From an uncultured Gammaproteobacteria bacterium (lineage in GTDB: Bacteria > Pseudomonadota > Gammaproteobacteria > Pseudomonadales > Ketobacteraceae), in assembly GCA_913063495.1 (NCBI GenBank), contig CAJXXT010000040.1, positions 1 through 32,502 on the forward strand: DNA of 32,502 bases. Direction: 5' to 3'. Made by a program: the position numbers and the translations under genes. Below are positions 9,490-23,064 of this stretch, piece after piece. Position 1 is the stretch's first letter. The number at the start of each line of letters is the position of its first letter. The notes beneath the pieces are model-generated. The model was not told the origin of the DNA and made no database searches. It saw only the letters and a list, made by a program, of their open reading frames with translations.

Positions 9490-10557
9490 CTATTTATGAG
9501 CAACGATTATTTCTGGGATTTTGTGCAACGGTATTTCCTGATCAATGGCCCCTAATTTAACCGCCTCCTGCGGCATGCCATAAACAACACACGTTGCCTC
9601 ATTTTGCGCGATAGTTTTTGCCCCTGAATCATGCATTTCTTTTATTCCTCTGGCCCCGTCATCCCCCATGCCAGTCATAATAATACCCAGCGCATTACCC
9701 CCTGCATACTTCGAAACGGAGCGAAATAACACATCCACGGACGGTTTATGTCGACTCACCAATGGCCCGTCCTTCACTTGTACTGATGCTCCAAACTGAG
9801 TCGCTTGTAATATCATGTGTTTACCACCAGGGGCGATCAGAACTCTTCCTGGAAGTAACGCATCATTATCCTCCGCCTCCTTAACGTCCACCTTACATAA
9901 CTCATTTAATCGATTGGCGAAGGTATGTGTAAACTTTTCAGGCATATGCTGCACGATAAGTATTGGCAAGGTATTCGCCGGTAACGCAGTTAACACCGCT
10001 TCTAACGCTTGGGTTCCTCCGGTGGACGCACCTATGGCGATCATAGGGCCCGTTTTTTTAGTGTTACGACTAATACCTTTACTTAACATCACATCAGCAG
10101 TTAATTTACTAGGCACACGAGGAATAGGAGCGATTCGTCTGGGTTTGACTCCCGCCATATTGGCCTTAGCAGCTGTGCGAATGGCCGTGATTAGCTCCTG
10201 AGAAACCTCCGGCAAGGACGTTTTCAGGTTGGCTTTCGGTTTAGCGACAATGTCAATCGCCCCAAGGCTTAACGCCTGAAGTGATGTCTTTGATCCACCT
10301 TCTGTTAATGTAGAGCACATCACTACCGGTGTCGGCCGCTCAACCATAATCTGCTTGAGGAATGTAATACCGTCCATACGAGGCATCTCGACATCAAGGA
10401 TAATAACGTCCGGCCAGTCCTTCCTCATTTTTGATTGCGCAAATATCGGATCCTGCGCCGAACCGATCACCTCAATGCCTGCAACACCGTCAAGCAGCTC
10501 AGCAAGAACCTTCCTCACAACAGCAGAATCATCAACTATAAATACCCGAATACCCAT
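9490..10557 (-). CDS. cheB: Chemotaxis response regulator / protein-glutamate methylesterase CheB
   Basis: 355 aa, normal length. It removes methyl groups from chemoreceptors, or deamidates them, when phosphorylated by CheA. The receiver domain (1-120) has acidic pocket D9-D10 and phospho-acceptor D55 (ILDVEMP). The C-terminal esterase domain shows the Ser of IGASTGGT, the His of VQHMPEKF and the Asp of MTGMGDDGA, the catalytic triad. It is the last gene of the cluster, 17 nt after cheD. No hairpin terminator is visible in the 115 nt that follow. Confidence 0.97.
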   Translation of the reverse strand: MGIRVFIVDDSAVVRKVLAELLDGVAGIEVIGSAQDPIFAQSKMRKDWPDVIILDVEMPRMDGITFLKQIMVERPTPVVMCSTLTEGGSKTSLQALSLGAIDIVAKPKANLKTSLPEVSQELITAIRTAAKANMAGVKPRRIAPIPRVPSKLTADVMLSKGISRNTKKTGPMIAIGASTGGTQALEAVLTALPANTLPILIVQHMPEKFTHTFANRLNELCKVDVKEAEDNDALLPGRVLIAPGGKHMILQATQFGASVQVKDGPLVSRHKPSVDVLFRSVSKYAGGNALGIIMTGMGDDGARGIKEMHDSGAKTIAQNEATCVVYGMPQEAVKLGAIDQEIPLHKIPEIIVAHK

Positions 10558-10574: not shown

Positions 10575-11117
10575 TCAGGGAATTGTTTTTTGTAACGGTT
10601 CATGTTTAACCCACACATCACCACTTCCTACATCAAAAACGATACGCCGATGCCCAGTTTCTCCAACATGTGCAATCAATAATGAGATACCTAGTTCTTT
10701 CAGGTGCCTAATCGCCGCCTCCGTATTTCGAGTGCCGATGCGTTCGTCTTCTCGTAACGTTGTATTTGTTAACATATTGCTACCACCAAATATCTTAGCG
10801 TGATACTCCTTCAAATTCGTTCCACGTCGAGCAGCCTCATTGGCAAACAAAACCATCGCAGCATCTGAGTAACGTCCATTGAGTTCGCACCCATCACGTA
10901 TCACACTATTCGGTGCTCGCCCCCCAGGAAGCACAAAGTGACACATCCCCCCTATATGAAGAACAGGGTGCCACAGTGTAATTGCAATGCACGACCCCAG
11001 TATTGTGTTGATTTGACAATCTGACTCACAAAAATAAAATTCGCCAGGATTAAGAAACCGACTAATGATACCCTCGTTGCTTTCTCCTTCTTTTGTTGTA
11101 GGTATGATTTTCATCAT
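10575..11117 (-). CDS. cheD: Chemoreceptor glutamine deamidase CheD
   Basis: 180 aa. It converts specific receptor Gln to Glu and can tune receptor-kinase output. The catalytic Cys is residue 43 (GSCIAI) and the His is residue 60 (GGMCHFVLPG); the later AKIFGGSNML segment is also typical. The frame opens with two Met codons; I use the first. It starts 3 nt after the cheR stop, so translation is coupled. CheD can stand in for receptor adaptation steps, and its presence with CheB and CheR gives a full adaptation set here. Confidence 0.95.
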   Translation of the reverse strand: MMKIIPTTKEGESNEGIISRFLNPGEFYFCESDCQINTILGSCIAITLWHPVLHIGGMCHFVLPGGRAPNSVIRDGCELNGRYSDAAMVLFANEAARRGTNLKEYHAKIFGGSNMLTNTTLREDERIGTRNTEAAIRHLKELGISLLIAHVGETGHRRIVFDVGSGDVWVKHEPLQKTIP

Positions 11118-11120
11118 CTA

Positions 11121-11933
11121 TCAACTAACAGCCTTTTTATACACAGTAGGAATAATCGCTTCCAATCCATCATGTATTCCTTTCAAAGATTCGGAATGAC
11201 CAATAAAAAGATACCCATCCGGTTTCATTTTATCAACCAACTGTCTGATAATTTTTATTTTCGTCTCCATATCAAAATAGATTAAAACATTGCGAAGAAA
11301 AATAATGTCAAAAGACCCAATATTTCCCAATGGATTTTTTAGATTCACTGAGGAAAATGACACCTTCTGCCGTATTTTTTTATCAATCAGAAGAGTTCCC
11401 TCCTGTTCATCAACGCCTTTAAGACAATACTTATGTAAATACGCTACAGGAATCCCATCGATTCTGGTTTGTTGATAATGTCCTTTTTGCGCAGCTTTAA
11501 CTACACGGCTACTGATATCGGATCCAAAGATCTCCCAAGGGTGATTACCTAACATGTCATCTAACAACATGGCAATGCTATACGCCTCCTCTCCTGTAGA
11601 TGAAGCTGCACTCCATACTCTAAGCGTTTTCCCACCCTTCCACTTGGGAAGAATCTCCCTTTCCAAAAACGAAAAATGCTTTGGCTCTCTAAAAAAATAG
11701 GTCTCATTTGTTGTCAGTAAATCTATGACAACTTGTCGCTCGCCACTCTGCACAGAAGCCATCATTAAATCAAAGTACTGCTGAAACGAGTCTAGAGAGT
11801 AGTGTCGAAGCCTTTTACTGAGACGAGAGGTAACAAGTGTCTTTTTTTCATCACTCAGGTTAATCCCAGCGTTATCATAGATAAACGTCCTGAAAGAATT
11901 GAACTCACTATCTGTAATAGTAAACTGAAACAT
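11121..11933 (-). CDS. cheR: Chemotaxis protein methyltransferase CheR
   Basis: 270 aa. It methylates receptor glutamates using S-adenosylmethionine. The N-terminal helical domain spans about 1-72, then TTNETYFFR (74-82). The SAM-binding segment SAASSTGEEAYS begins near 108, the acidic SAM contact is at 139, and FLRNVLIYF and IGHSESL follow. The beta-subdomain loop (about 168-183, KYCLKGVDEQEG) has the same length as in E. coli CheR, which docks on receptor C-terminal pentapeptides. I choose ATG 11933, with GAGTGG 5 nt upstream, over a GTG at 11942 that overlaps that site. It sits between the heme-c MCP and cheD. Confidence 0.95.
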   Translation of the reverse strand: MFQFTITDSEFNSFRTFIYDNAGINLSDEKKTLVTSRLSKRLRHYSLDSFQQYFDLMMASVQSGERQVVIDLLTTNETYFFREPKHFSFLEREILPKWKGGKTLRVWSAASSTGEEAYSIAMLLDDMLGNHPWEIFGSDISSRVVKAAQKGHYQQTRIDGIPVAYLHKYCLKGVDEQEGTLLIDKKIRQKVSFSSVNLKNPLGNIGSFDIIFLRNVLIYFDMETKIKIIRQLVDKMKPDGYLFIGHSESLKGIHDGLEAIIPTVYKKAVS

Positions 11934-11994
11934 CAATACCACTCATATAACATAATTTTAAGACCTCAACTTCGATTGACCTAGTTCATCAACC

Positions 11995-13596
11995 TTATTT
12001 CAACTGCTTGTTCTCAGATGACCCATTACCTACATGAAAAAATCCCACAACCTGCTGTAGGTTTGCGGACTGTGCCAGCATCTCCTCGGCGGTTGCCGCA
12101 AGCTCTTCAGATCCAGCTGCATTTTGCTGCGTCACTTTATCCAGCTGTTGCATTGCAGTATTGATCTGGGAAACACCACTTGACTGCTCTTCAGAAGCTG
12201 CCGTAATTTCCTGTACCAGGGCCGCAGTTTTTGTAATATCCGGCACCATTTTCTGAAGTAGTGTACCGGCTTTCTCTGCCACTTTCACACTATCACCGGT
12301 CAGCGCGCTAATTTCCGCAGCAGCAACCTGACTTCGCTCAGCCAGTTTTCTAACCTCCGAAGCAACCACTGCGAAACCTTTACCATGTGCACCTGCTCGC
12401 GCAGCTTCTATTGCTGCATTCAACGCAAGCATATTAGTCTGGTAGGCAATATCTTCAATAATTGAAATTCTCTCCGCAATTTGCGTCATAGCTTTAACGG
12501 TGCCCTCCACGGCCTCACCACCTTCGGCTGCTGCAGAAGCCGATTCCTGAGCAATTTTATCTGTCGCTTGAGCATTTTTACTATTCTGACTAATTGACGC
12601 CCCCATTTCCTCCACCGATGCACTAGTCTCTTCGACACTGGACGCTTGCTCACTAGCGGCCCCACTTAATGAGCTTGCAGTAGCGTTTACCTGAGCAGAA
12701 GCAGATGATATCTGATCCGAATTTTCCTGAATCTGCTCTACCACTTCGACCAACTTCTGCTGCATATTGAGCATTGCACCATTGAGCTTTCCAATTTCAT
12801 CATCACCACCGATAGCAACCTCGGTTTGTAAATTACCTTTGGAAATTGCCGTCAACGTGGCACGTGCCCCATCTAACCTGACATTTACAATTCGCTGAAA
12901 GCTGAAGAAAATAACAATACAAACAATGAGCAGAGCAGAAACAAATACACCGACGACAATTTGACTTATCGACGTGCTCTGCGCGACCATGTCATCTATA
13001 TCGACAACAATTTCCAGTACTCCGCGCACATCACCCAGCTTCCAGTTATTTTTGGGCGTATCTGCTCGTGAGTTATGACAATCCACGCACCCCTGCGCAA
13101 CCATGATGTCAGGAATAGCAACTCGAACAACTTGCTTACCACTCATCTCTCCTGTCTCAACAAATCGACTGTCTGGATTTTTTATCAAGTAATTCCAGGC
13201 GTTTTTACCAAAAGTATCTAACTGCCTTTTCTGCCGATTGGGAAAAGGAAAGTCACTGTATAAACGTAAATCCGTTCCATCCTTTTTCAATATTTTACTA
13301 AGGTCATGAATCAGGGTGGCAGGAAGTGGGATAGCGTTCTTTTCGCTGGCATGATTAAACGAAGGTTTTAATGAAGAACCAACCAGCACTTTTTTGACAA
13401 CGTTTTTCGTATAGTAACCACGAATTGTTTTAAATTGATTCACTGTTTTTATAGCAGATGCGATCGCATTATTCTGGGCATTCGTATTGCCTAGTCTGGG
13501 AATTAGGATCGCCACAAAAATGGAAATAACGACCATAGTAATAAAGACTGGCATCAACAGTTTAAATCTCACGCTTCTTTTGGTGAATACATTCAT
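11995..13596 (-). CDS. Methyl-accepting chemotaxis protein with Tll0287-like (DUF3365) heme-c sensor domain
   Basis: 533 aa. TM1 lies at about 13-33, a periplasmic domain at 34-205, TM2 at about 207-230, then HAMP and a signalling hairpin. The periplasmic domain carries CxxCH at residues 170-174 (CVDCH) followed by [15 protein letters not shown], the pattern of the DUF3365/Tll0287-like domain, which binds c-type heme covalently. A redox- or gas-sensing role is inferred. The hairpin tip reads [19 protein letters not shown]. The signalling half is nearly the same as that of the dCache MCP two genes upstream. There is no C-terminal CheR-tethering pentapeptide (it ends ENKQLK). A GGAGG ribosome-binding site precedes the ATG. 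Confidence 0.93.
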
Positions 13597-13708: not shown

Positions 13709-14233
13709 CTATTGCATTTCAGTAGCAGATAATTCCGCTACCGATAGAATAACCCGGGTATCTAAAAGCACCAGTAACTGATCATTGATCTTTCCCATCC
13801 CATCAATAAAATCCGTACGGATTTTAGTACCAAAAGGAGGTGCAGGCTCTATCTCATTCGGTAAAATTCCAATAACCTCATTGACTACATCAACAGTGAT
13901 ACCTATTTCAAGCTTTTGTTCTTCGTACTCGACTTCTAGAATTACAATGCTACTGCGTTTTGTCCTCTCAGACGGCAATTCAGAAAACCGAAGCGCTAAA
14001 TCAACCACCGGCACAACACTTCCTCGTAGATTAATAACACCGGCAATAAAAGCCGGCATCATCGGAACTCGAGTAATATTTCCATAGTCAATAATCTCTC
14101 GAATATTGAGTATATCAATGCCGTAAGCCTCACCATTCAACTCAAATGTGAGAAACTGACAACGATCTCTGCCAGAATTATCTTCCGTTAGATACCCTGT
14201 TACACTCTGCTGCGATACCTGTTGCTGCATCAT
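13709..14233 (-). CDS. cheW: Chemotaxis coupling protein CheW (second copy in the operon)
   Basis: 174 aa. It links receptors to CheA in the signalling array. The whole length is a CheW domain: FLTFELNGEAYGIDILNIREII, then RVPMMPAFIAGVINLRGSVVPVVDLALRF, then a C-terminal GIGKI-like MGKINDQLLVLLDTRVILS. A short polar N-terminal tail (about 25 residues) precedes the domain. AGGAG lies just upstream of the paired Met codons. It is followed by the heme-c MCP and preceded at 13 nt by the dCache MCP. It is clearly related to the other CheW at 16577, which suggests a duplicated cheW-MCP module. Confidence 0.96.
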   Translation of the reverse strand: MMQQQVSQQSVTGYLTEDNSGRDRCQFLTFELNGEAYGIDILNIREIIDYGNITRVPMMPAFIAGVINLRGSVVPVVDLALRFSELPSERTKRSSIVILEVEYEEQKLEIGITVDVVNEVIGILPNEIEPAPPFGTKIRTDFIDGMGKINDQLLVLLDTRVILSVAELSATEMQ

Positions 14234-14246
14234 TAACTCCTATGAA

Positions 14247-16484
14247 TTAAAAGCGCTTGAACTTTGACTCGTCAATCTCGTCACCCTCATCCCTACTAGT
14301 CACAACGGTAACGGATGACTTGATTTGTGCAGCAGGTCTGGATGTAGAATTTGGCTCGCGCTGCGCACTGGTATTCGCTGCCAGTCGAAAGAACCCGACC
14401 ACCTGTTGTAAATTCTCCGACTGTGCCTGCAGCTGCTCTGCCGTAGCCGCTAACTCCTCGGAACCCGCTGCATTTTGTTGGGTGACTTTGTCCAGTTGTT
14501 GCATCGCACTATTGATTTGCCCTACTCCACTCGACTGCTCCTCAGAAGCCGCACTTATTTCCTGGACCAATTCTGCCGTTTTGGTAATATCGGGGACAAT
14601 TTTTTCAAGTAACATGCCAGCCTTCTCTGCTACTTTCACACTATCTCCTGTTAAGGTACTGATTTCTGAGGCGGCTATCTGACTGCGCTCTGCAAGTTTT
14701 CTTACTTCGGCAGCAACAACGGCAAACCCTTTACCATGCTCCCCTGCTCTCGCCGCTTCAATTGCCGCATTCAACGCCAGCATATTCGTCTGGTAAGCAA
14801 TATCCTCAATAATTGAAATTCTCTCCGCAATCTGCATCATTGCATCAACCGTTCCATGAACAGCCTCCCCACCTTCCGCTGCGGATTGGGCAGACTCGCT
14901 GGCAATTTGATCCGTCGTCTGAGCATTCTCACTATTCTGGCTGATTGAGGCCCCCATCTCTTCAACCGATGCACTGGTCTCTTCGACGCTGGCCGCTTGC
15001 TCACTGGCGGCTTCACTTAATGAACTTGCGGTATCGCTAACTTGTGCGGCGGCAGAAGAGATCTGATCGGAATTACCCTGAATCTGCTCCACTACCACAA
15101 TCAATTTTTGCTGCATATTAATCATTGCAGCATAAACTCCCACCAACTTACTTTTATCCAGATGACTTAGATCCATACTAAGGTCACCCATTGCAATACT
15201 TTCAGCCAGCACCCGAACCTCTGCAGGATCTGCTCCTAGCTGCTTCATTACACTGCGGACAAAAAGAACGGCAATTAATACAATAAACATTGCGGCAACT
15301 CCCATCGCAATCAAAATGGCTAACTCAAGCGCATTCACCGTTTCAAATGCTTCGTCTTCATCAATTTCTGCAAGGAGAACCCAATCCAGCCCTTTAATTT
15401 TAAGTGGGGTGTAGGCCGAAAGGACGTTAATACCACGATAATCAGGCGTAATCTCCGCCCCTTCATTTCCCGCAAGTGCATCAATAGCGGTAACAGTCTC
15501 TATCTTTGTCGCTAGAATGGTGTTCTCTTCAGAAAAACGAGACTGCGACCGCATCAGTTTATCAGGGCCTACCAAGTAGACCTCACCGGATTTACCAAGA
15601 CCTTCTCCTACCAACAACCGGCGGTTAATTTCATCCACTGGCATTTGAAAAACAAGAACACCTGTCATTTCATCGCCATCAAAGATCGGCGACGCAATGA
15701 ATGAAGCCGCTGCATTGAATGAGGGAATGTACCAATCAAAATCGTTAACAACGGTTTCATCCTTAGAGCGAGAACTTGCAGCTTTCCTGACAACATCAGC
15801 TATGCCAGAATCTTTGTGAGCCCCGACATATAAATTAGTAGCGTAATCAATCTCTTTAAATACCGAATACACAATGTCGCCTGTCTCATTATCCACAAGA
15901 AAAATATCATAATAACCAAACTTTTCCAGGTAACTGCGAAACATTGGATGGGATTTCGAATGGTTATTCGAATAACGTGAGCCATCTTTTGGGTCATCAA
16001 GCTGCGACTTACTACCTAAGGGGTGTTTGTTATCGGAAATATAAAGATATTGAGCGATAACTCCTGAATCTGAAGACGCCATTAACTGACCTGAGGAAAT
16101 AGATTCCCCCGTATCCTTGGTAAATTTCGAGCCAAATTCATTATCGAAAAAACGGCGTACATCACGCCTATATTCAGCCAATTTATTTTCGTCAACACTA
16201 AGATCCCCTGCTAGGGCATGAAAGCTGTCTTTCGCATCACGCATCATATCAATCGTCATTTGATCTTCAGATAAGGTAATAATTTGATTTTCTATCTGAT
16301 GAAAATAGTTTTCAATTTCACCCTTTTTAACGGTTTTGAGTGACTTAAGTTGATCAAACCCCTTCGTATATAACGCTTCCTGTGCTTCATTCAATGCATA
16401 TAAACCCGTTCCAATTAACGGCACCAGTCCCGCCACAAGCATAGAAATTATCAACATCCATTTCATTTCAATATTTTTTAACAT
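14247..16484 (-). CDS. Methyl-accepting chemotaxis protein with dCache periplasmic domain and CheR-tethering pentapeptide
   Basis: 745 aa from ATG 16484. AGGAG touches the ATG at 16490 directly but is 6 nt from the second ATG (16484), so I prefer the latter. TM1 is at about 7-30, a large periplasmic dCache-type domain at 31-385 ([22 protein letters not shown]; later [10 protein letters not shown] and [11 protein letters not shown]), and TM2 at about 386-410. HAMP and a long signalling hairpin follow, with tip [19 protein letters not shown]. The C-terminus KFKRF fits x-[HFYW]-x-x-[HFYW], the pattern of CheR-docking pentapeptides. It belongs to the operon and lies between the two cheW genes. 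The ligand is unknown; dCache domains often bind amines, amino acids or organic acids. Confidence 0.94.
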
Positions 16485-16576
16485 TTTCATCTCCTAGAAA
16501 TAACAAATATCAAAAACTTTAAAAAACATCTTTAACGAAAAAAAACGATCATATCAACGCTGCTCTAAATGCTGCT

Positions 16577-17083
16577 CTAAATGCTGCCCACCATTGAAAG
16601 CTCATCAACCGACAAAACATGTTCAATGTCCAGCAAAATTAGAAGTTTGCCGTCAACCTTTGCCATGCCATTGATGAAATTGGTCTGAATCTGATCGCCC
16701 AGAGAGGGCGCAGGTTCAATTTCGCCAGGATGGATATCCAGCACCTCATTAACCATATCGACCATAACGCCAATTTCTATTTTCAAATCAGCGCTCTTAA
16801 CTTCAAGAATAATAATACTGGTACGTTTGGCAAGTTCTGTCGCTTTACCTGAAAAACGTTGACTCAGGTCTATGACTGGAACCACGCTACCTCGTAAATT
16901 TATGACTCCCGATATGAATTCTGGGGTCATGGGAACTTCCGTTATGTCACCATATTCAATAATCTCTTTGATATTGAGTATGCCCAAGCCGTAAACTTTC
17001 CCACCCAACATAAAGGTAAGGTATTGCTCAGAATCTTCTGAACCAACATCGCCCATTTCGACTTTCATTTCAGTTTGGTGCAT
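16577..17083 (-). CDS. cheW: Chemotaxis coupling protein CheW (first copy in the operon)
   Basis: 168 aa from ATG 17083. It couples CheA to receptors. The CheW domain covers the whole protein after about 20 residues: YLTFMLGGKVYGLGILNIKEII, VPMTPEFISGVINLRGSVVPVIDLSQRF, and NGMAKVDGKLLILLDIEHVLS. The frame stays open to a GTG at 17104, but GGAG is correctly spaced only for the ATG at 17083, and E. coli CheW is of similar length (167 aa). It follows cheA after 34 nt and precedes the dCache MCP. Confidence 0.95.
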   Translation of the reverse strand: MHQTEMKVEMGDVGSEDSEQYLTFMLGGKVYGLGILNIKEIIEYGDITEVPMTPEFISGVINLRGSVVPVIDLSQRFSGKATELAKRTSIIILEVKSADLKIEIGVMVDMVNEVLDIHPGEIEPAPSLGDQIQTNFINGMAKVDGKLLILLDIEHVLSVDELSMVGSI

Positions 17084-17117
17084 CACGCTCTCCACAAACG
17101 CCACAAGTTATGATTCA

Positions 17118-19427
17118 TTAAATGGTTTTAGAAGACATAAACGTTTTCTGTTCAGAATTAACAACCCGACTCACCATTTCAGGAATATCGATAATCATTG
17201 CAACCTCACCACTACCGAGAATGGTGGTACCACTAATGCCTTTCAGGTTACGAAATACTTTTCCGAGTGGTTTAATGACGGTTTGATGCTCTCCCAATAA
17301 TTCATCAACCACAAATCCCGCCTTCTTACCCCCAAATTGAACCACAACGATATTATCGCGATGCCTACCTTCAATATCCTTCATTTCAGCGTTTCTTTCG
17401 CTACCCTCATATCCCTTCACTCGAAACATATCTTTTAAATGTACAAAGGGAAGAATCTCACCACGTAGATTGAGGTAATTTGCATTTCCATCCTTTTCAC
17501 GAAGCGACTCATTCAGTTCGATACATTCATCAACCATATCCAACGGCACGATATATTGAGCGTCACCCACTCGCACTTGAAAGCCGTCAATAATGGCTAA
17601 CGTCAAAGGCAGCCGGATAGCAATAGTACTTCCTTTTCCTTCCTCACTTTCAATTTCTACTTGACCTCGAAGTGACTCAATATTCCTACGCACGACATCC
17701 ATTCCAACACCTCGACCCGATATATTACTGACACTCTCAGCAGTTGAAAAACCGGCCTCAAATATAAGCTGAAATATTTCTTGGTCACTTAACTGTTGGT
17801 TTTCATTGACGAGCCCTTTTTCAATGGCCTTATTAAGTATTTTTTCTTTTGAAAGTCCACCACCGTCATCAGTGATTCTGATTACAACGCTGCCTGACTC
17901 ATGAAATGCACTGAGACTGACGACTCCCTTAGCCGCTTTTCCTGTTTCCTTTCTTATTGCAGGTGATTCAATACCATGATCGATGGCATTACGAACGAGA
18001 TGCATAATAGGATCACCTATTTTTTCAATCAATGTTTTGTCAAGTTCAGTTTCCGCGCCACTGATTCGCAGCTCGATATCCTTACCCGTATCACGGCTGA
18101 CTTCACGTACAACACGTTTAAATCGATTAAAAGTCTCACCGATCTGTACCATACGCAACCCAAGAGCCGTATCTCGCACCTCCTCAACCAGACGCAATAA
18201 GTTTTCCATGGCTTCATTTAAATTTGCATCCGATAATTGACGCGCATTGAGATCGGCATTAGCCGAACCAATAACCAATTCACCCACTAAGTTAACCAGG
18301 TCTTCTAATTTAAGCGCGTTAACCCGAATGGTCTGCTGCGAGCTAGTGTTCTGTTGCTGTACATCTTTCTGTTTCTTGATGGCCGCATCGACCACTTCCT
18401 GTTCTACGACATTTTCACCAACCGCTATCTTGCCAAGCAGGGGGGCATCCCACTCTCGACCACCAGCGGTTATCCCATCGTTAAAATCATCTTGAATATT
18501 AAGAATGTGATCCTTCTCTCGCTCGGTGAGCGCACCGCACGCAACCAGGATATCGCCAATTCGTAATTCGTCTTCCGGAAGGTCTTCAATCAGTTGAATA
18601 TAGGAATTGATATGGCTATGTGGCGGAAGGATACTGATATGACAATCATCTAGAACAAACTCAAAGACTTCCTCAATTTCCTCCTTATTCGTATTTGATG
18701 AAACCAACACAATTTCAAAACCGAGATAACAGCTCTCCGGATCAAATTCAGCCCAACCTGGTATTGAATCGTCGATGAGATTAACGCTTTTAAGCTCACC
18801 TATGTTAGCAAGGTATTTAATAAATGACGCGGGGTCCATACCATTGCGCAAAGCAGCAGGGCCAAATCGCAAGGAGATATGCCAGTTTCCACTAACAACA
18901 CCATCAGATTCGTCTAACCTATCATCTAGTCGAGCTAGTATTTTTGAAGCACCTTCCTGTTCCGTTTCTGCTCTAAGTTCTTCCTTCTTTGGTTCCGTCA
19001 CTGCCCCTTTATCTACGCCTATCGCTGTAGGAGCCAAGTAGGCATTTAACTTGCCAACGAGATAATCATCTCTCTTTTTAACCTCGACACTCATGTGATC
19101 CTCATCACTTAGCGCTATCTTCACGAGATATTCCAGGTGGTCCAGGTTGGCCAGAAAGAGGGACACCATATTTTCATCAACAGTAATAATACCTTCTCGA
19201 ATTTTAACAAACACACTTTCTACAATATGGGTAAAATCAACAATCTCATTAAAACCGAAAAGCCCTGCTGCCCCCTTTATCGTATGGAAGGTACGAAAAA
19301 TCTCATTAACACACTCCAGGGTATCAACTTCATCCTCCAGATTGTCCATACGGAGTAATGCCTGCTCTGCCGAAGCCAGTAGATCTTCCGCTTCATCAGC
19401 AAAGATATGTAATCCTTCGTCACTCAT
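17118..19427 (-). CDS. cheA: Chemotaxis histidine kinase CheA
   Basis: 769 aa. It autophosphorylates and passes phosphate to CheY and CheB. The P1 domain has the phospho-accepting His48 (RTFHTIKGAAGLFGF). A ferredoxin-like middle domain (about 182-268) ends at ISILPP. Residues 289-354 hold two copies of a G-[D/K]-I-x-V...-x-Q-style repeat, resembling the N-terminal domain of type II secretion ATPases and found in some CheA linkers. P3 dimerisation begins near 368. The P4 kinase has the N box HLVRNAIDHG (476-485), DDGGGL and GRGVGMDVV. The C-terminal P5 CheW-like domain begins DGFQVRVGDAQYIVPLD. The start codon overlaps the STAS stop (ATGA), so translation is coupled. Confidence 0.97.
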   Translation of the reverse strand: MSDEGLHIFADEAEDLLASAEQALLRMDNLEDEVDTLECVNEIFRTFHTIKGAAGLFGFNEIVDFTHIVESVFVKIREGIITVDENMVSLFLANLDHLEYLVKIALSDEDHMSVEVKKRDDYLVGKLNAYLAPTAIGVDKGAVTEPKKEELRAETEQEGASKILARLDDRLDESDGVVSGNWHISLRFGPAALRNGMDPASFIKYLANIGELKSVNLIDDSIPGWAEFDPESCYLGFEIVLVSSNTNKEEIEEVFEFVLDDCHISILPPHSHINSYIQLIEDLPEDELRIGDILVACGALTEREKDHILNIQDDFNDGITAGGREWDAPLLGKIAVGENVVEQEVVDAAIKKQKDVQQQNTSSQQTIRVNALKLEDLVNLVGELVIGSANADLNARQLSDANLNEAMENLLRLVEEVRDTALGLRMVQIGETFNRFKRVVREVSRDTGKDIELRISGAETELDKTLIEKIGDPIMHLVRNAIDHGIESPAIRKETGKAAKGVVSLSAFHESGSVVIRITDDGGGLSKEKILNKAIEKGLVNENQQLSDQEIFQLIFEAGFSTAESVSNISGRGVGMDVVRRNIESLRGQVEIESEEGKGSTIAIRLPLTLAIIDGFQVRVGDAQYIVPLDMVDECIELNESLREKDGNANYLNLRGEILPFVHLKDMFRVKGYEGSERNAEMKDIEGRHRDNIVVVQFGGKKAGFVVDELLGEHQTVIKPLGKVFRNLKGISGTTILGSGEVAMIIDIPEMVSRVVNSEQKTFMSSKTI

Positions 19428-19744
19428 GCTACATCCCCAATAGGAAAGCGCTCACCGATACCGTAAGTTTTTAGTAGTTTGGTGACCTCACTACTAACGG
19501 CGTTCAGCTTGAATGTTTTGTTTCTTCGCTTCAGTTCACCCTCTAACGCAAACAATAATTGAATACCTGCGGTATCAATCTCTTCTACTCCAGATAAATC
19601 TAGCTCAAAACAATCATAACTATCCAGCAGAGTGGTAATCGTTTGCTTCATGGGCTCAATCACATAGATAGTCATCTCCTCCTCAACCACCAATGTACAC
19701 AAGCCCTCGGTGCTATTGCTAACCGTCTTCATGTTAAGTGCCAT
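19424..19744 (-). CDS. STAS-domain protein (anti-anti-sigma/MlaB-like) in the chemotaxis operon
   Basis: 106 aa, a single STAS domain: CFELDLSGVEEIDTAGIQLLFALEGELKRRNKTFKL. I choose ATG 19744, with AAAGGTG upstream, over GTG 19753. At the position of the regulatory Ser of SpoIIAA-type proteins (DSSG) this one has DTAG, so classical Ser phosphorylation is unlikely. STAS proteins of this kind are recurrent next to cheY/cheA in non-enteric proteobacterial chemosensory clusters, but their role is poorly defined; scaffolding is possible. It overlaps cheA by 4 nt and follows cheY by 38 nt. Confidence 0.9.
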   Translation of the reverse strand: MALNMKTVSNSTEGLCTLVVEEEMTIYVIEPMKQTITTLLDSYDCFELDLSGVEEIDTAGIQLLFALEGELKRRNKTFKLNAVSSEVTKLLKTYGIGERFPIGDVA

Positions 19745-19782
19745 GTTTATCACACCTTTAGATAATCACGTTTATTTGCTCT

Positions 19783-20148
19783 TTATAAAACCAGTTTTGA
19801 TACTACATTCAACAATTTAGGGGGCTGAAATGGTTTTACAATCCAGGCTTTAGCGCCTGCAGCTTTCCCTTCCGCCATTTTCGACTGCTCAGCTTCAGTC
19901 GTTAACATGCAAATAGGGGTAAACCTGTAACTCGCGAGTTTCCTCACTTCTTTCACCAATGTAATGCCATCCATATTAGGCATATTCACATCACTCACAA
20001 TCAGGTGAATTTTTTGGCCCGTTAATTTCGACAGTGCATCTTTTCCATCACAGGCTTCAATCACCTCGTAACCAGCCCCTTTTAAAGCGATTCCTACAAC
20101 ACTGCGAACTGACGCAGAATCATCAACAATCAATATGGTTTTCGACAT
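19783..20148 (-). CDS. cheY: Single-domain response regulator CheY
   Basis: 121 aa, a receiver domain only. The acidic pair is D9-D10, the phospho-acceptor D53 (IVSDVNMPNMDG), the switch Thr83 (MLTTEAE) and the conserved Lys105 (VKPF). It is the likely output or phosphate sink of the CheA in this cluster. It lies between the short-loop MCP (14 nt upstream) and the STAS gene. Whether it binds the flagellar motor cannot be told from the sequence; F7-type cluster CheYs often do not. Confidence 0.96.
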   Translation of the reverse strand: MSKTILIVDDSASVRSVVGIALKGAGYEVIEACDGKDALSKLTGQKIHLIVSDVNMPNMDGITLVKEVRKLASYRFTPICMLTTEAEQSKMAEGKAAGAKAWIVKPFQPPKLLNVVSKLVL

Positions 20149-20162
20149 GTTTTACCTTCCTG

Positions 20163-21323
20163 TTAAAAAAATACGACATCACCATCGTCTGACTCTTCGG
20201 ACGTTTCAGCGATTTCTATTCCCGTAAGTTTTTTGTGAACGTCACGTTCACTTGTAGTGGTATACTCTCCAGCCATCTTCTCTAGAAAACGACCAACATC
20301 CAAATTCTTATGATCCTCAATCAAACCAGATAATTCAGACATGTTGCCTCTCACGTGATCTAGAATTTGTGATACACGATCCCAAAACTGCAAAGATACT
20401 AATGCGTTCTCAATTTCTGACGTAATACTTGACGAGAATTGTTCAAGACTTTCAAGTCCTTCATCTCGCTCTCTCGTTATCTCAGCATGCTCATCAATAA
20501 CCGCTTGAATATTCTCGCGGGCAGCATTAAGAAGCTCACCTTCAATTGAGGCATTAGTGGAAGATTTTTGTTCCATGCTGTTAAACATTTCGTTAGCTTT
20601 CACCACATTGGTGATGATATCTGAAGCAATTTTTCCAGAGCGACTTGCCAGATTCCGCACCTCATCGGCAACTACGGAAAACCCTCGGCCGGCCTCTCCA
20701 GCTCGTGCAGCTTCTATCGCCGCATTAAGGGCTAATAAATTAGTCTGATCAGCAATACTGCCAACATCACGAGCCATTGACTCCAATTTTTCAATAAACA
20801 CTGAAAGCTCTGCAATTTCCTGCTGCAACTCCTCTCTCATACCAACCAGTTTAACCAGCGAAGATGATATGCTATCTAACTTCTCTTTTATCTCTATAAC
20901 AGAGTGCTCATCGCTCTCATTTTTCCCACTGACAATAGCGCGCAGGTCACTTACAATGCCAGAAAATCGTTCCGCCAGACCATTCATTTCAGCAGTAGAT
21001 ATGTTAATACAATCATCAATTTGATGAGCCCAGATTGGAAGATTGCTATTTCCAATTGTTTGCAATGAACTGATAGTATTTTGATATTCCTGCATTTCCA
21101 CTTCAATAACAGACAACCGCTTATCCGTCTTAACGCTATGATCATTCAGACGCGTATAGAGTCTCCGCTTTCTTATACCTAATGCTAATTCTACAGTGAT
21201 CAACACGAATGCAGCTACTGTCGAAAACAGCATATCGCTAGACATAATTAGAATAACAGCTATCAAACCTGCAACGCCTGCAGGTACACGATCTAAGGAT
21301 ATATCATTTGGTTTGGTCACCAT
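20163..21323 (-). CDS. MCP-like membrane protein with a CheZ-type FxDxxxQ motif
   Basis: 386 aa. Two closely spaced hydrophobic segments (about 14-29 and 32-50) leave almost no periplasmic loop, so it has no external sensor domain. A short signalling hairpin follows, with tip [25 protein letters not shown] (192-215). Near the C-terminus, [10 protein letters not shown] (312-321) matches the CheZ catalytic pattern F-x-D-x-x-x-Q. The protein ends in an acidic tail closing with two Phe (GDVVFF), reminiscent of the CheY-docking tail of CheZ. It is the first gene of the operon and directly precedes cheY; no cheZ is present. In P. aeruginosa Che2 an MCP gene (PA0180) occupies the same position. The phosphatase idea is inference. 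Confidence 0.85.
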
Positions 21324-21546: not shown

Positions 21547-23064
21547 CTACACCTTAAATCGTGTTACCTGTCCACGCAGCTCATCACACAATCCAAGCAG
21601 TTCTCTGCTAGCACCATTAGAAGCACCCGTATCCGATGCTGTATCCACTGCGATATCTTGGATACGTGTTAAGTTACGATTAATATCTTCACTTACCGCA
21701 GACTGCTCTTCAATAGCACTGGCAATTTGAGTGGTCATATCACTTATCGTGGAAATCGCAGTGGTTATCTCATCCAATGAACCTTCAGCAGCATTTGCCT
21801 TTCCAACCGTTAAATCACCCGACTCTTTACCACCTTCCATCACCTTAACTGCTTCACTAGCACCGCTCTGCAAACGCTCAATCATATCTTGGATTTCTTG
21901 TGTGCTTTCTTGTGTCCGGCTCGCCAACGTACGAACTTCATCTGCAACAACAGCAAATCCTCGTCCTTGCTCTCCCGCTCGCGCCGCTTCAATCGCAGCA
22001 TTTAATGCCAGCAAATTGGTTTGTTCAGCAATACCTCGAATAACGTCCAATACTGTCACGATGTTACCAACATCACCTTGCAACGCATTTACCACGTTTG
22101 CGCCATGCTCAATTTCTTTCGCCAATTGAGAAACCGATTGTACCGTATCCGTCAGCACACCCTTTGCTGCAAAAACACTTTCCTCTGCGTGACGTGCCGA
22201 ATCTGCAGCTTCCAAAGCATTTCTGGATACCTCTTGAGAAGCCGTACTCATTTCATTCATAGCAACAGCGGCTTGATCTGTTTCTGAGCGCTGATGATCC
22301 ACCCCTTTACTTGTTTTCTCTGCAATAATCGCCATTTCAGTCACAGAACGATTCATACCGTTCATCGTACCGACAATTTGCACAATCAAAACCTGAATCT
22401 TTTCTACGAACACATTAAAGTTACTCGAAAGCGCACCTATTTCACCAGAGCCTTCCTTTAACCGCACAGTAAGATCCCCCTCACCATGAGCAATATCTTC
22501 TAATGCACGAATAACATCATCAATGGGTCGAATGACAACAGAGCGCATTAACATCGATAACAGAAATGATAAAACAACATCTAATACCAGTGTTTGCACG
22601 GCCAAACGTATTAACGTTTCTTCTAGCAACTCCGTGATATAACCATCATCTTTTACAACGATAGCCCGGCCCACCTTATTAACAGTACCCCCATCATCAT
22701 AGGTTAACTCTCGATCAGATAAATTTTCTTCTGTTATTAACGCCTCATCTTTGACAATAACACCAGAGAGCGACTTCGAGCGGCTCGCAATTAGCTTTGT
22801 CCCATCGTATAAAAACAACCCTTTGACAAACTCTGCCTGAGCTTCAGATTCTAATATTTTCCCTGTTTGCTCGCCTTCGAAGTTCCATAAGGTTGTAGGT
22901 AAACTGAGTTGTAAACGATCGAGCAATAAAACAACCTGGGCATCCAGTTGTTTTCTCAAGGTTTTTTCGGTAGATATGTAATTATATGCACCAAAGCCAA
23001 CCAACAACACTGTCACACAAGCAACTGCTAGCACATTAAATTTAACACTTATAGAATCCTTCAC
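21547..23064 (-). CDS. Methyl-accepting chemotaxis protein, separate transcription unit
   Basis: 505 aa, GTG start with AAGGTG 8 nt upstream. TM1 lies at about 8-28, a periplasmic domain of about 120 residues (30-150) that I cannot assign but which contains [16 protein letters not shown], and TM2 at about 152-176. HAMP ([21 protein letters not shown]) and a signalling hairpin follow, with tip [25 protein letters not shown]. It has no CheR-tethering pentapeptide. Its signalling domain belongs to a different sub-class from the two operon MCPs (different tip flanks), so it may serve another array. It is divergent from a periplasmic binding protein gene, a possible ligand partner. Confidence 0.94.

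Follow-up and report, generated by a model that had tools for sequence, protein, structure and literature searches.

Structural work on CheZ, the CheY-P phosphatase of the E. coli type (PF04344), has shown that an Asp holds the active-site Lys of CheY and a Gln positions the attacking water; the C-terminal tail of CheZ docks CheY-P, and the protein is a homodimeric four-helix bundle built from two hairpins. The CheC, CheX and FliY phosphatases would serve the same function with a fold and an active-site motif unrelated to those of the CheZ type. Among receptors, a ligand-binding sensor domain is typical of MCPs without being universal. The McpA-like receptors (CttP/McpA/PA0180, VCA1088) are, according to PMC7184735, transmembrane proteins encoded beside an F7 cluster, with a conserved C-terminus that lacks a CheR pentapeptide; the excerpted literature treats this C-terminus as important and leaves its role unaccounted for. 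The 24H chemoreceptors, for example VC1394 (PMC7534058, in excerpt), resemble by description the receptor analyzed below, combining a short signalling domain with a transmembrane segment in a che cluster, and little is known about them. Among the titles and abstract openings found by searching the open-licence PMC library, none describes a receptor with a CheZ motif; other papers may hold one.

We analyzed a 32,502-nt window (the whole stretch of DNA presented here) in which a gene for a 386-aa protein with an ATG start (20163..21323, minus strand) heads a chemotaxis operon. With a probability of roughly two in three (about 0.68), sequence comparison points to a membrane-anchored, sensor-less chemoreceptor with a putative CheZ-type CheY-P phosphatase site. 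MCPsignal was the only Pfam domain above cutoff (PF00015, 94.5 bits; cutoff 34.6), and this score together with the conserved hairpin tip places the protein in PF00015. An N-terminal transmembrane hairpin at residues ~13–52 (21168..21287, minus strand), its two segments separated by just a few residues, is followed by RKRR and was identified from the sequence, a hydropathy script and AlphaFold2 helices at residues 15–26 and 31–133. No ligand-binding sensor domain was found by Pfam, the coiled coil being preceded by the transmembrane hairpin alone. The MCP hairpin tip lies at residues 195–225 (20649..20741, minus strand), the CheZ-type Asp/Gln motif QFWDRVSQ at residues 312–319 (20367..20390, minus strand; D315 codon 20379-20381 and Q319 codon 20367-20369, by arithmetic) and the C-terminal tail GDVVFF, a candidate docking peptide, at residues 381–386 (20166..20183, minus strand). 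The initial annotation had described this anatomy from the letters alone: a membrane-bound, sensor-less protein with an MCP hairpin, encoded by the first gene of the operon next to cheY, F-x-D-x-x-x-Q within residues 312–321 and an acidic-Phe ending. Pfam, the sequence, the model and a comparison of loci all agree with it, and the motif coordinates it gave are exact.

AlphaFold2 modelled the monomer as a single long hairpin (mean pLDDT 76, pTM 0.38), with low-confidence breaks at residues 134–138 and 286–289, roughly symmetric around the tip, and with the D315/Q319 motif in the membrane-proximal part of the coiled coil. By script, the membrane-to-tip span is 158 residues, or ~23.7 nm if straight, and those of the operon's two other MCPs are 167 and 164 residues. 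Excerpts of published work give 23–25 nm for F6-type arrays and 20 nm, as measured, for a 34H receptor of 165 residues, a length to which the two other MCPs come close. In length, the protein suits an F6-like array no less than the operon's own receptors do, which is a fit and not evidence of array membership.

The protein belongs to a family of ~400-aa proteins from Gammaproteobacteria and beyond that usually have a transmembrane hairpin, lack a sensor and keep an intact MCP tip; 10 of 43 LF-tailed frames had no transmembrane segment by script, some of these being cut frames. The family has no curated name here, no NCBIfam model scored over cutoff for the six members scanned, and tblastn of the window protein gave no match in plasmids. 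One MAG, Gammaproteobacteria bacterium isolate SZUA-229 (L005), encodes a protein 62% identical, with MQFQDRVSQ and the tail GEVVFF, and has the same first five genes. When 96 genomes (the genome itself and its relatives) were searched with the whole protein, 22 had matches, almost always in frames of 384–435 aa (the exceptions being one frame of 554 aa and another of 184 aa), and [FY]xDxxxQ was present in the C-terminal arm of 28 of the 30 matches fetched, self included (25 by script; L020, L027 and L031 by reading). The two that lack it in this arm are L023 and L024; the former is a 403-aa short MCP that ends STELF and has no F-x-D-x-x-x-Q. A C-terminal profile built from 25 rows picked for carrying the motif matched 113 of 370 class genomes at E ≤ 1e-6, in part through stand-alone short proteins; at E ≤ 1e-10 it matched 87 of 397 genomes of the phylum. 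Because of this choice of rows its matches lean towards the motif, and the whole-protein set of 30 is less biased.

Conservation of D315 and Q319, on which the initial annotation had staked its proposal, held across 92 members from 89 loci, window gene excluded (69 members from 69 loci, then 23 from 20). In the same alignment columns, Asp was found in 90/92, Gln in 90/92 and both in 89/92, while the residues between them vary. One deviant, L167, has Arg for Gln; the other two, the related paralogues L197_441 and L198_8579, have Glu for Asp (with Pro for Gln in L198_8579), a degenerate tip and no tail. Each of these two (L197:441 and L198:8579) sits in a tandem pair in a genome of another class of the phylum, and the partner copy keeps motif and tail. 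The tip has 17 columns invariant among 58 aligned members (the window protein and 57 of the 69 first collected, mostly 22–35% identical to it, with L167 among the 12 left out), and outside the tip only F120, Q312, F313, D315, Q319 and F386 are invariant in these rows. The distance from tip to motif is constant, with the same register in all 62 members whose tip the script located. After the tip of ordinary MCPs from the same loci, F.D...Q was found in 0 of 80 and the relaxed [FYLMI].D...Q in 9 of 80. The motif observation is real, and much stronger than could be known from the single sequence.

The correspondence to Asp143 and Gln147 of CheZ, also noticed at the outset, was borne out by the 1kmi_Z alignment, which reads DFQDLTGQ, with D143 and Q147 placed by counting from the printed numbering. 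Using hhalign, the C-terminal profile aligned to a profile of 21 true CheZ sequences (a subset of 29 collected) with E = 1.1e-5 and a probability of 82% over 61 columns, Asp and Gln being in register. As controls, the best of 30 column shuffles gave E = 0.0091, the next 0.13 and the reversed profile 0.14. Masking the motif raised the E value to 0.0067 with the register kept, so the motif itself supplies the bulk of the similarity to CheZ and its surroundings add a little. The window protein had no match to PF04344 at E ≤ 1, and the best PF04344 score in its own genome, 17.7 bits on a family paralogue, is below the cutoff of 30.7. In a PDB sequence search with the family profile, a designed helix bundle ranked first (E = 3.2e-6) and CheZ appeared at E = 4.7, which shows that helical composition inflates such scores. 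Foldseek matches of the full-length model began with MCP structures and did not list CheZ, and a short stand-alone model gave nothing below E = 0.001; a second look with VIA-align returned generic helical hairpins, with CheZ absent among the 50 matches listed. The family protein and CheZ are alike in having F-x-D-x-x-x-Q in a long helix, a C-terminal Phe and in-register profile similarity, but differ in that the family motif is fused to an MCP hairpin and a membrane anchor and that the window protein has no Pfam CheZ match. The tails differ as well, being acidic-[IV]-x-[LF]-F in the family and DDLLSSLGF in CheZ.

The operon reads MCP-cheY-STAS-cheA-cheW-MCP-cheW-MCP-cheR-cheD from the window gene, followed by a frame read as cheB, all on the minus strand. 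Immediately downstream lies cheY (19783..20148; 121 aa, with D53, N55, T83, E85 and K105; Pfam and alignment), the putative substrate. Among 60 CheY sequences (the window's own and, for 59 of 90 loci, the best match, which does not always adjoin a family member), Asp53 and Asn55 were conserved in 60/60, Thr83 and Glu85 each in 58/60 and Lys105 in 59/60; the closest PDB entries are 4hnr and 4h60. There follow a 109-aa STAS-domain protein (19424..19753; PF13466, PF01740), a 769-aa CheA (17118..19427; Pfam and linkage survey), cheW (16577..17104), a 747-aa MCP that ends KFKRF and has a dCache_1 match below the Pfam cutoff (14247..16490), a second cheW (13709..14233), a 533-aa MCP with a Tll0287-like sensor and HAMP that ends ENKQLK (11995..13596), cheR (11121..11942) and cheD (10575..11117), whose tail, LQKTIP, is not of the candidate docking type. 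These last six were assigned by Pfam, with a script used for the two MCPs. The frame at 9490..10557 (355 aa, receiver domain found) we take to be cheB from its place beside cheR and cheD and the recurring order in relatives, and not from the Pfam scan. A further MCP of 505 aa, ending TRFKV, is encoded at 21547-23064 on the same minus strand, 223 bases upstream of the window gene.

The initial annotation had also stated that the cluster has no cheZ, cheC or cheX. This stands for the cluster, where no CheZ, CheC or CheX was found among the ten proteins scanned with Pfam (cheB being outside the scan), and does not extend to the genome, which encodes a CheX outside the window operon, or to the genus, in which G001, G002 and G003 (91–96% complete) have CheZ. 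CheZ was not seen in the window's own genome (G000, 84.5% complete) or in G004 of the same genus (87%), and at 84.5% completeness its absence from the former may be an assembly gap; in G000, no CheC match reached the cutoff. The genome's CheX (G000:C228:1257-1811, L230) ends SDVELF, a tail of the family's class, and a CheX-like frame of G002 ends likewise. Across the class, CheZ was found in 161 of 370 genomes (160 over cutoff), and 101 of the 113 family-bearing genomes also have CheZ and 12 do not, which rules out the family as a general CheZ replacement. Together, the CheX of this genome and the CheZ of three of four same-genus genomes mark the family protein as a system-specific extra. The original interpretation is upheld in part: conservation, hairpin, tip and operon place bear it out, the phosphatase activity is putative, and the protein is no simple CheZ replacement.

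In eight loci, ranging from the same genus to the same order and including the MAG L005, a family member lies directly 5' of cheY in seven (L005, L079, L081-L085) and just 3' of cheB in L080 (G002). A ninth locus, L078, holds the type-B paralogue of the window's own genome (G000:C10, L078:8586-9785), which carries ALQFGDITGQVV and the tail DIDLF and lies at a contig end with no che genes recognised near. Of the 45 CheA genes most like the window's (E ≤ 1e-115), 33 lie no more than 12 kb from a listed member, always on the same strand, and 29 no more than 3 kb; for the remaining 12, the contig carries no listed member. Among 48 less similar CheA tested, 17 have a member within 12 kb, 13 of these on the same strand.

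In a second arrangement, the member follows cheB on its 3' side or sits at the opposite cluster end, next to an MCP whose C-terminus is WEEF or resembles it. Three genomes (L186-L188), inferred from their Che2-like gene order to be Pseudomonas, match the P. aeruginosa Che2 order (PA0173-PA0180), with a member at the McpA place that has LQFQDMSSQ and the tail GEVELF. Vibrio sp. THAF191d (NZ_CP046066.1) has cheY-cheA-cheW-cheW-MCP(WEEF)-cheR-cheD-cheB-member, labelled by similarity to the window's genes, and its member has LQFTDIIVQ and the tail EGEVELF. These sister members resemble McpA-like receptors in position, beside a WEEF-ending MCP, and have the motif and tail; their branch occupies the McpA/CttP position in F7-type clusters as judged by gene position, architecture, motif and tail. 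The window gene is one branch of this much wider family, which by gene position includes the McpA-like receptors of F7-type systems. It differs from them in operon type (member-cheY-STAS-cheA), in having no WEEF-ending MCP nearby and in its FF tail; where McpA-like receptors sit beside an F7 cluster with an Aer2-like receptor ending WEEF, the window operon has a STAS gene and two other MCPs, ending KFKRF and ENKQLK.

The last residue was Phe in all 69 members of the first set (FF in 37, LF in 31 and MF in 1). The strict tail [DEN][IVL]x[LFM]F was found in 56/71 members, 11/13 short proteins and 15/39 CheD, compared to 1/99 cheY-like frames, 2/4118 unlabelled frames and none of 73 MCPs, 57 CheA, 53 CheB, 52 CheR, 61 CheW, 33 STAS proteins and 1 CheZ. 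A similar [IVL][DE]LF tail ends CheD in 18 of 22 loci with an LF-ending member (an example frame in an F7-type locus is L176:9932-10627, plus strand) versus 1 of 27 with an FF-ending member, the window's operon type. At the DNA level, [DE][IVM][DE][LF]F-stop had 26 matches in six genomes, and its backward control had 10. Frames of at least 100 aa that close with it number 17, and every one encodes a chemotaxis or signalling protein (4 family members, 3 short proteins, 3 CheD, 1 CheX, 3 receiver proteins, 2 GGDEF proteins and 1 histidine kinase; ten identified by Pfam scan and seven by motif and length); of the other nine, six lie in frames of at most 32 aa (one cut by a contig end) and three lack a following stop. 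Three of these proteins (L218, L220 and L227; 416–433 aa) have an N-terminal receiver and no further Pfam match and end DVELF or DIELF. The tail is perhaps a common docking peptide. It may bind CheY-P, as the tail of CheZ does, or else a polar scaffold, and its presence on GGDEF, histidine-kinase and receiver proteins leaves room for a partner other than CheY.

QF(Y/E/G/Q)DxxxQ is also carried by twelve small proteins that lack an MCP part and come from frames of 167–239 aa, one of them in the window's own genome at G000:C285. This 219-aa protein (G000:C285:2317-2976, L066) has AFQFYDRLSQ and the tail DDIELF, with relatives in several genomes. A profile of eight stand-alone proteins matched the C-terminal family profile at E = 2.9e-15 (4.4e-10 with the motif masked) and had no match to the CheZ profile (E = 0.1), and AlphaFold2 modelled one of them as a helical hairpin (H22-75 and H77-130; mean pLDDT 80.5). 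Such proteins are possibly an undescribed soluble CheZ-like family.

A mechanism can be proposed on this basis. The conserved MCP tip would place the protein among CheA and CheW in the receptor array, and the membrane-proximal coiled coil, set off by the breaks at 134–138 and 286–289, would present D315 and Q319. Their roles would be those of Asp143 and Gln147 in CheZ, with Asp holding the active-site Lys of CheY and Gln positioning the attacking water; the flexible acidic tail would bind CheY-P in the manner of the CheZ tail. The first substrate would probably be the CheY encoded next door. Catalysis, the docking partner and a place in the array are what we infer from conservation and likeness to CheZ.

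Several other explanations would account for part of these data. F.D...Q does occur in 100 of 5,851 other stop-to-stop frames of at least 80 aa in the examined loci (QF.D...Q in 8), but a chance motif in a helical protein is already refuted by conservation, both residues occupying the same columns in 89/92 relatives, and its probability is practically nil. The tail could instead tether CheR or CheB like the WxxF pentapeptide of other MCPs, making the protein an ordinary receptor; this would suit an MCP with an aromatic C-terminal tail, and a number of ordinary MCPs from these loci have C-termini of the WEEF or FxRF type. It is nonetheless very improbable, given the same kind of tail on stand-alone non-MCP proteins and on CheX, and given P. 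aeruginosa McpA, which interacts with none of the four CheR proteins because its second pentapeptide residue is Val (PMC7184735, in excerpt). An EVELF tail would fit that Val.

In another reading, the C-terminus may serve localisation or assembly through a polar hub protein or other array partner, its resemblance to CheZ being convergent. That 17 of 17 tail-ending frames of at least 100 aa in six genomes are chemotaxis or signalling proteins implies that the partner may be wider than one CheY, but such an element covers the tail and leaves Q-F-x-D-x-x-x-Q in fixed register from the tip, as well as the CheZ profile match, unexplained, and we consider it quite unlikely. A non-catalytic binder, which would use motif and tail to retain CheY(-P) at the array as a local pool, a sink or for kinase delivery without hydrolysis, has a small but appreciable chance of being right: two paralogues lost motif and tail together, and CheD, not known to be a phosphatase, bears a similar tail. 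It is not obvious, however, why binding by itself should call for an invariant Gln at the fourth position after the Asp, and the intervening positions vary where Asp and Gln do not.

For the phosphatase reading, work on S. oneidensis cuts both ways. Overproduction of McpAso increases swimming, an effect abolished without CheA3 (PMC9855816, in excerpt), which is compatible with this reading if McpAso is a family member; deletion of mcpA left swimming unaffected in the same excerpt, which we counted against it. A broader proposal, which we offer tentatively and with the odds somewhat against it, is that McpA/CttP-type receptors and many relatives are array-embedded CheY-P phosphatases, and that the acidic-[IV]-x-[LF]-F tail is a docking code. 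Through it a common partner, either CheY-P or a polar scaffold, would gather stand-alone CheZ-motif proteins, CheX, F7 CheD and some c-di-GMP proteins at one site. If so, F7 and related systems would possess a signal-termination device of their own within the flagellar (F6) array, and this would link both systems. The CheZ-type site also offers a testable answer for the conserved C-terminus of McpA. Conserved CheZ catalytic residues in sensor-less receptors suggest that some receptor arrays hold their own off-switch, and a single protein would then join kinase control and CheY-P removal in the array.
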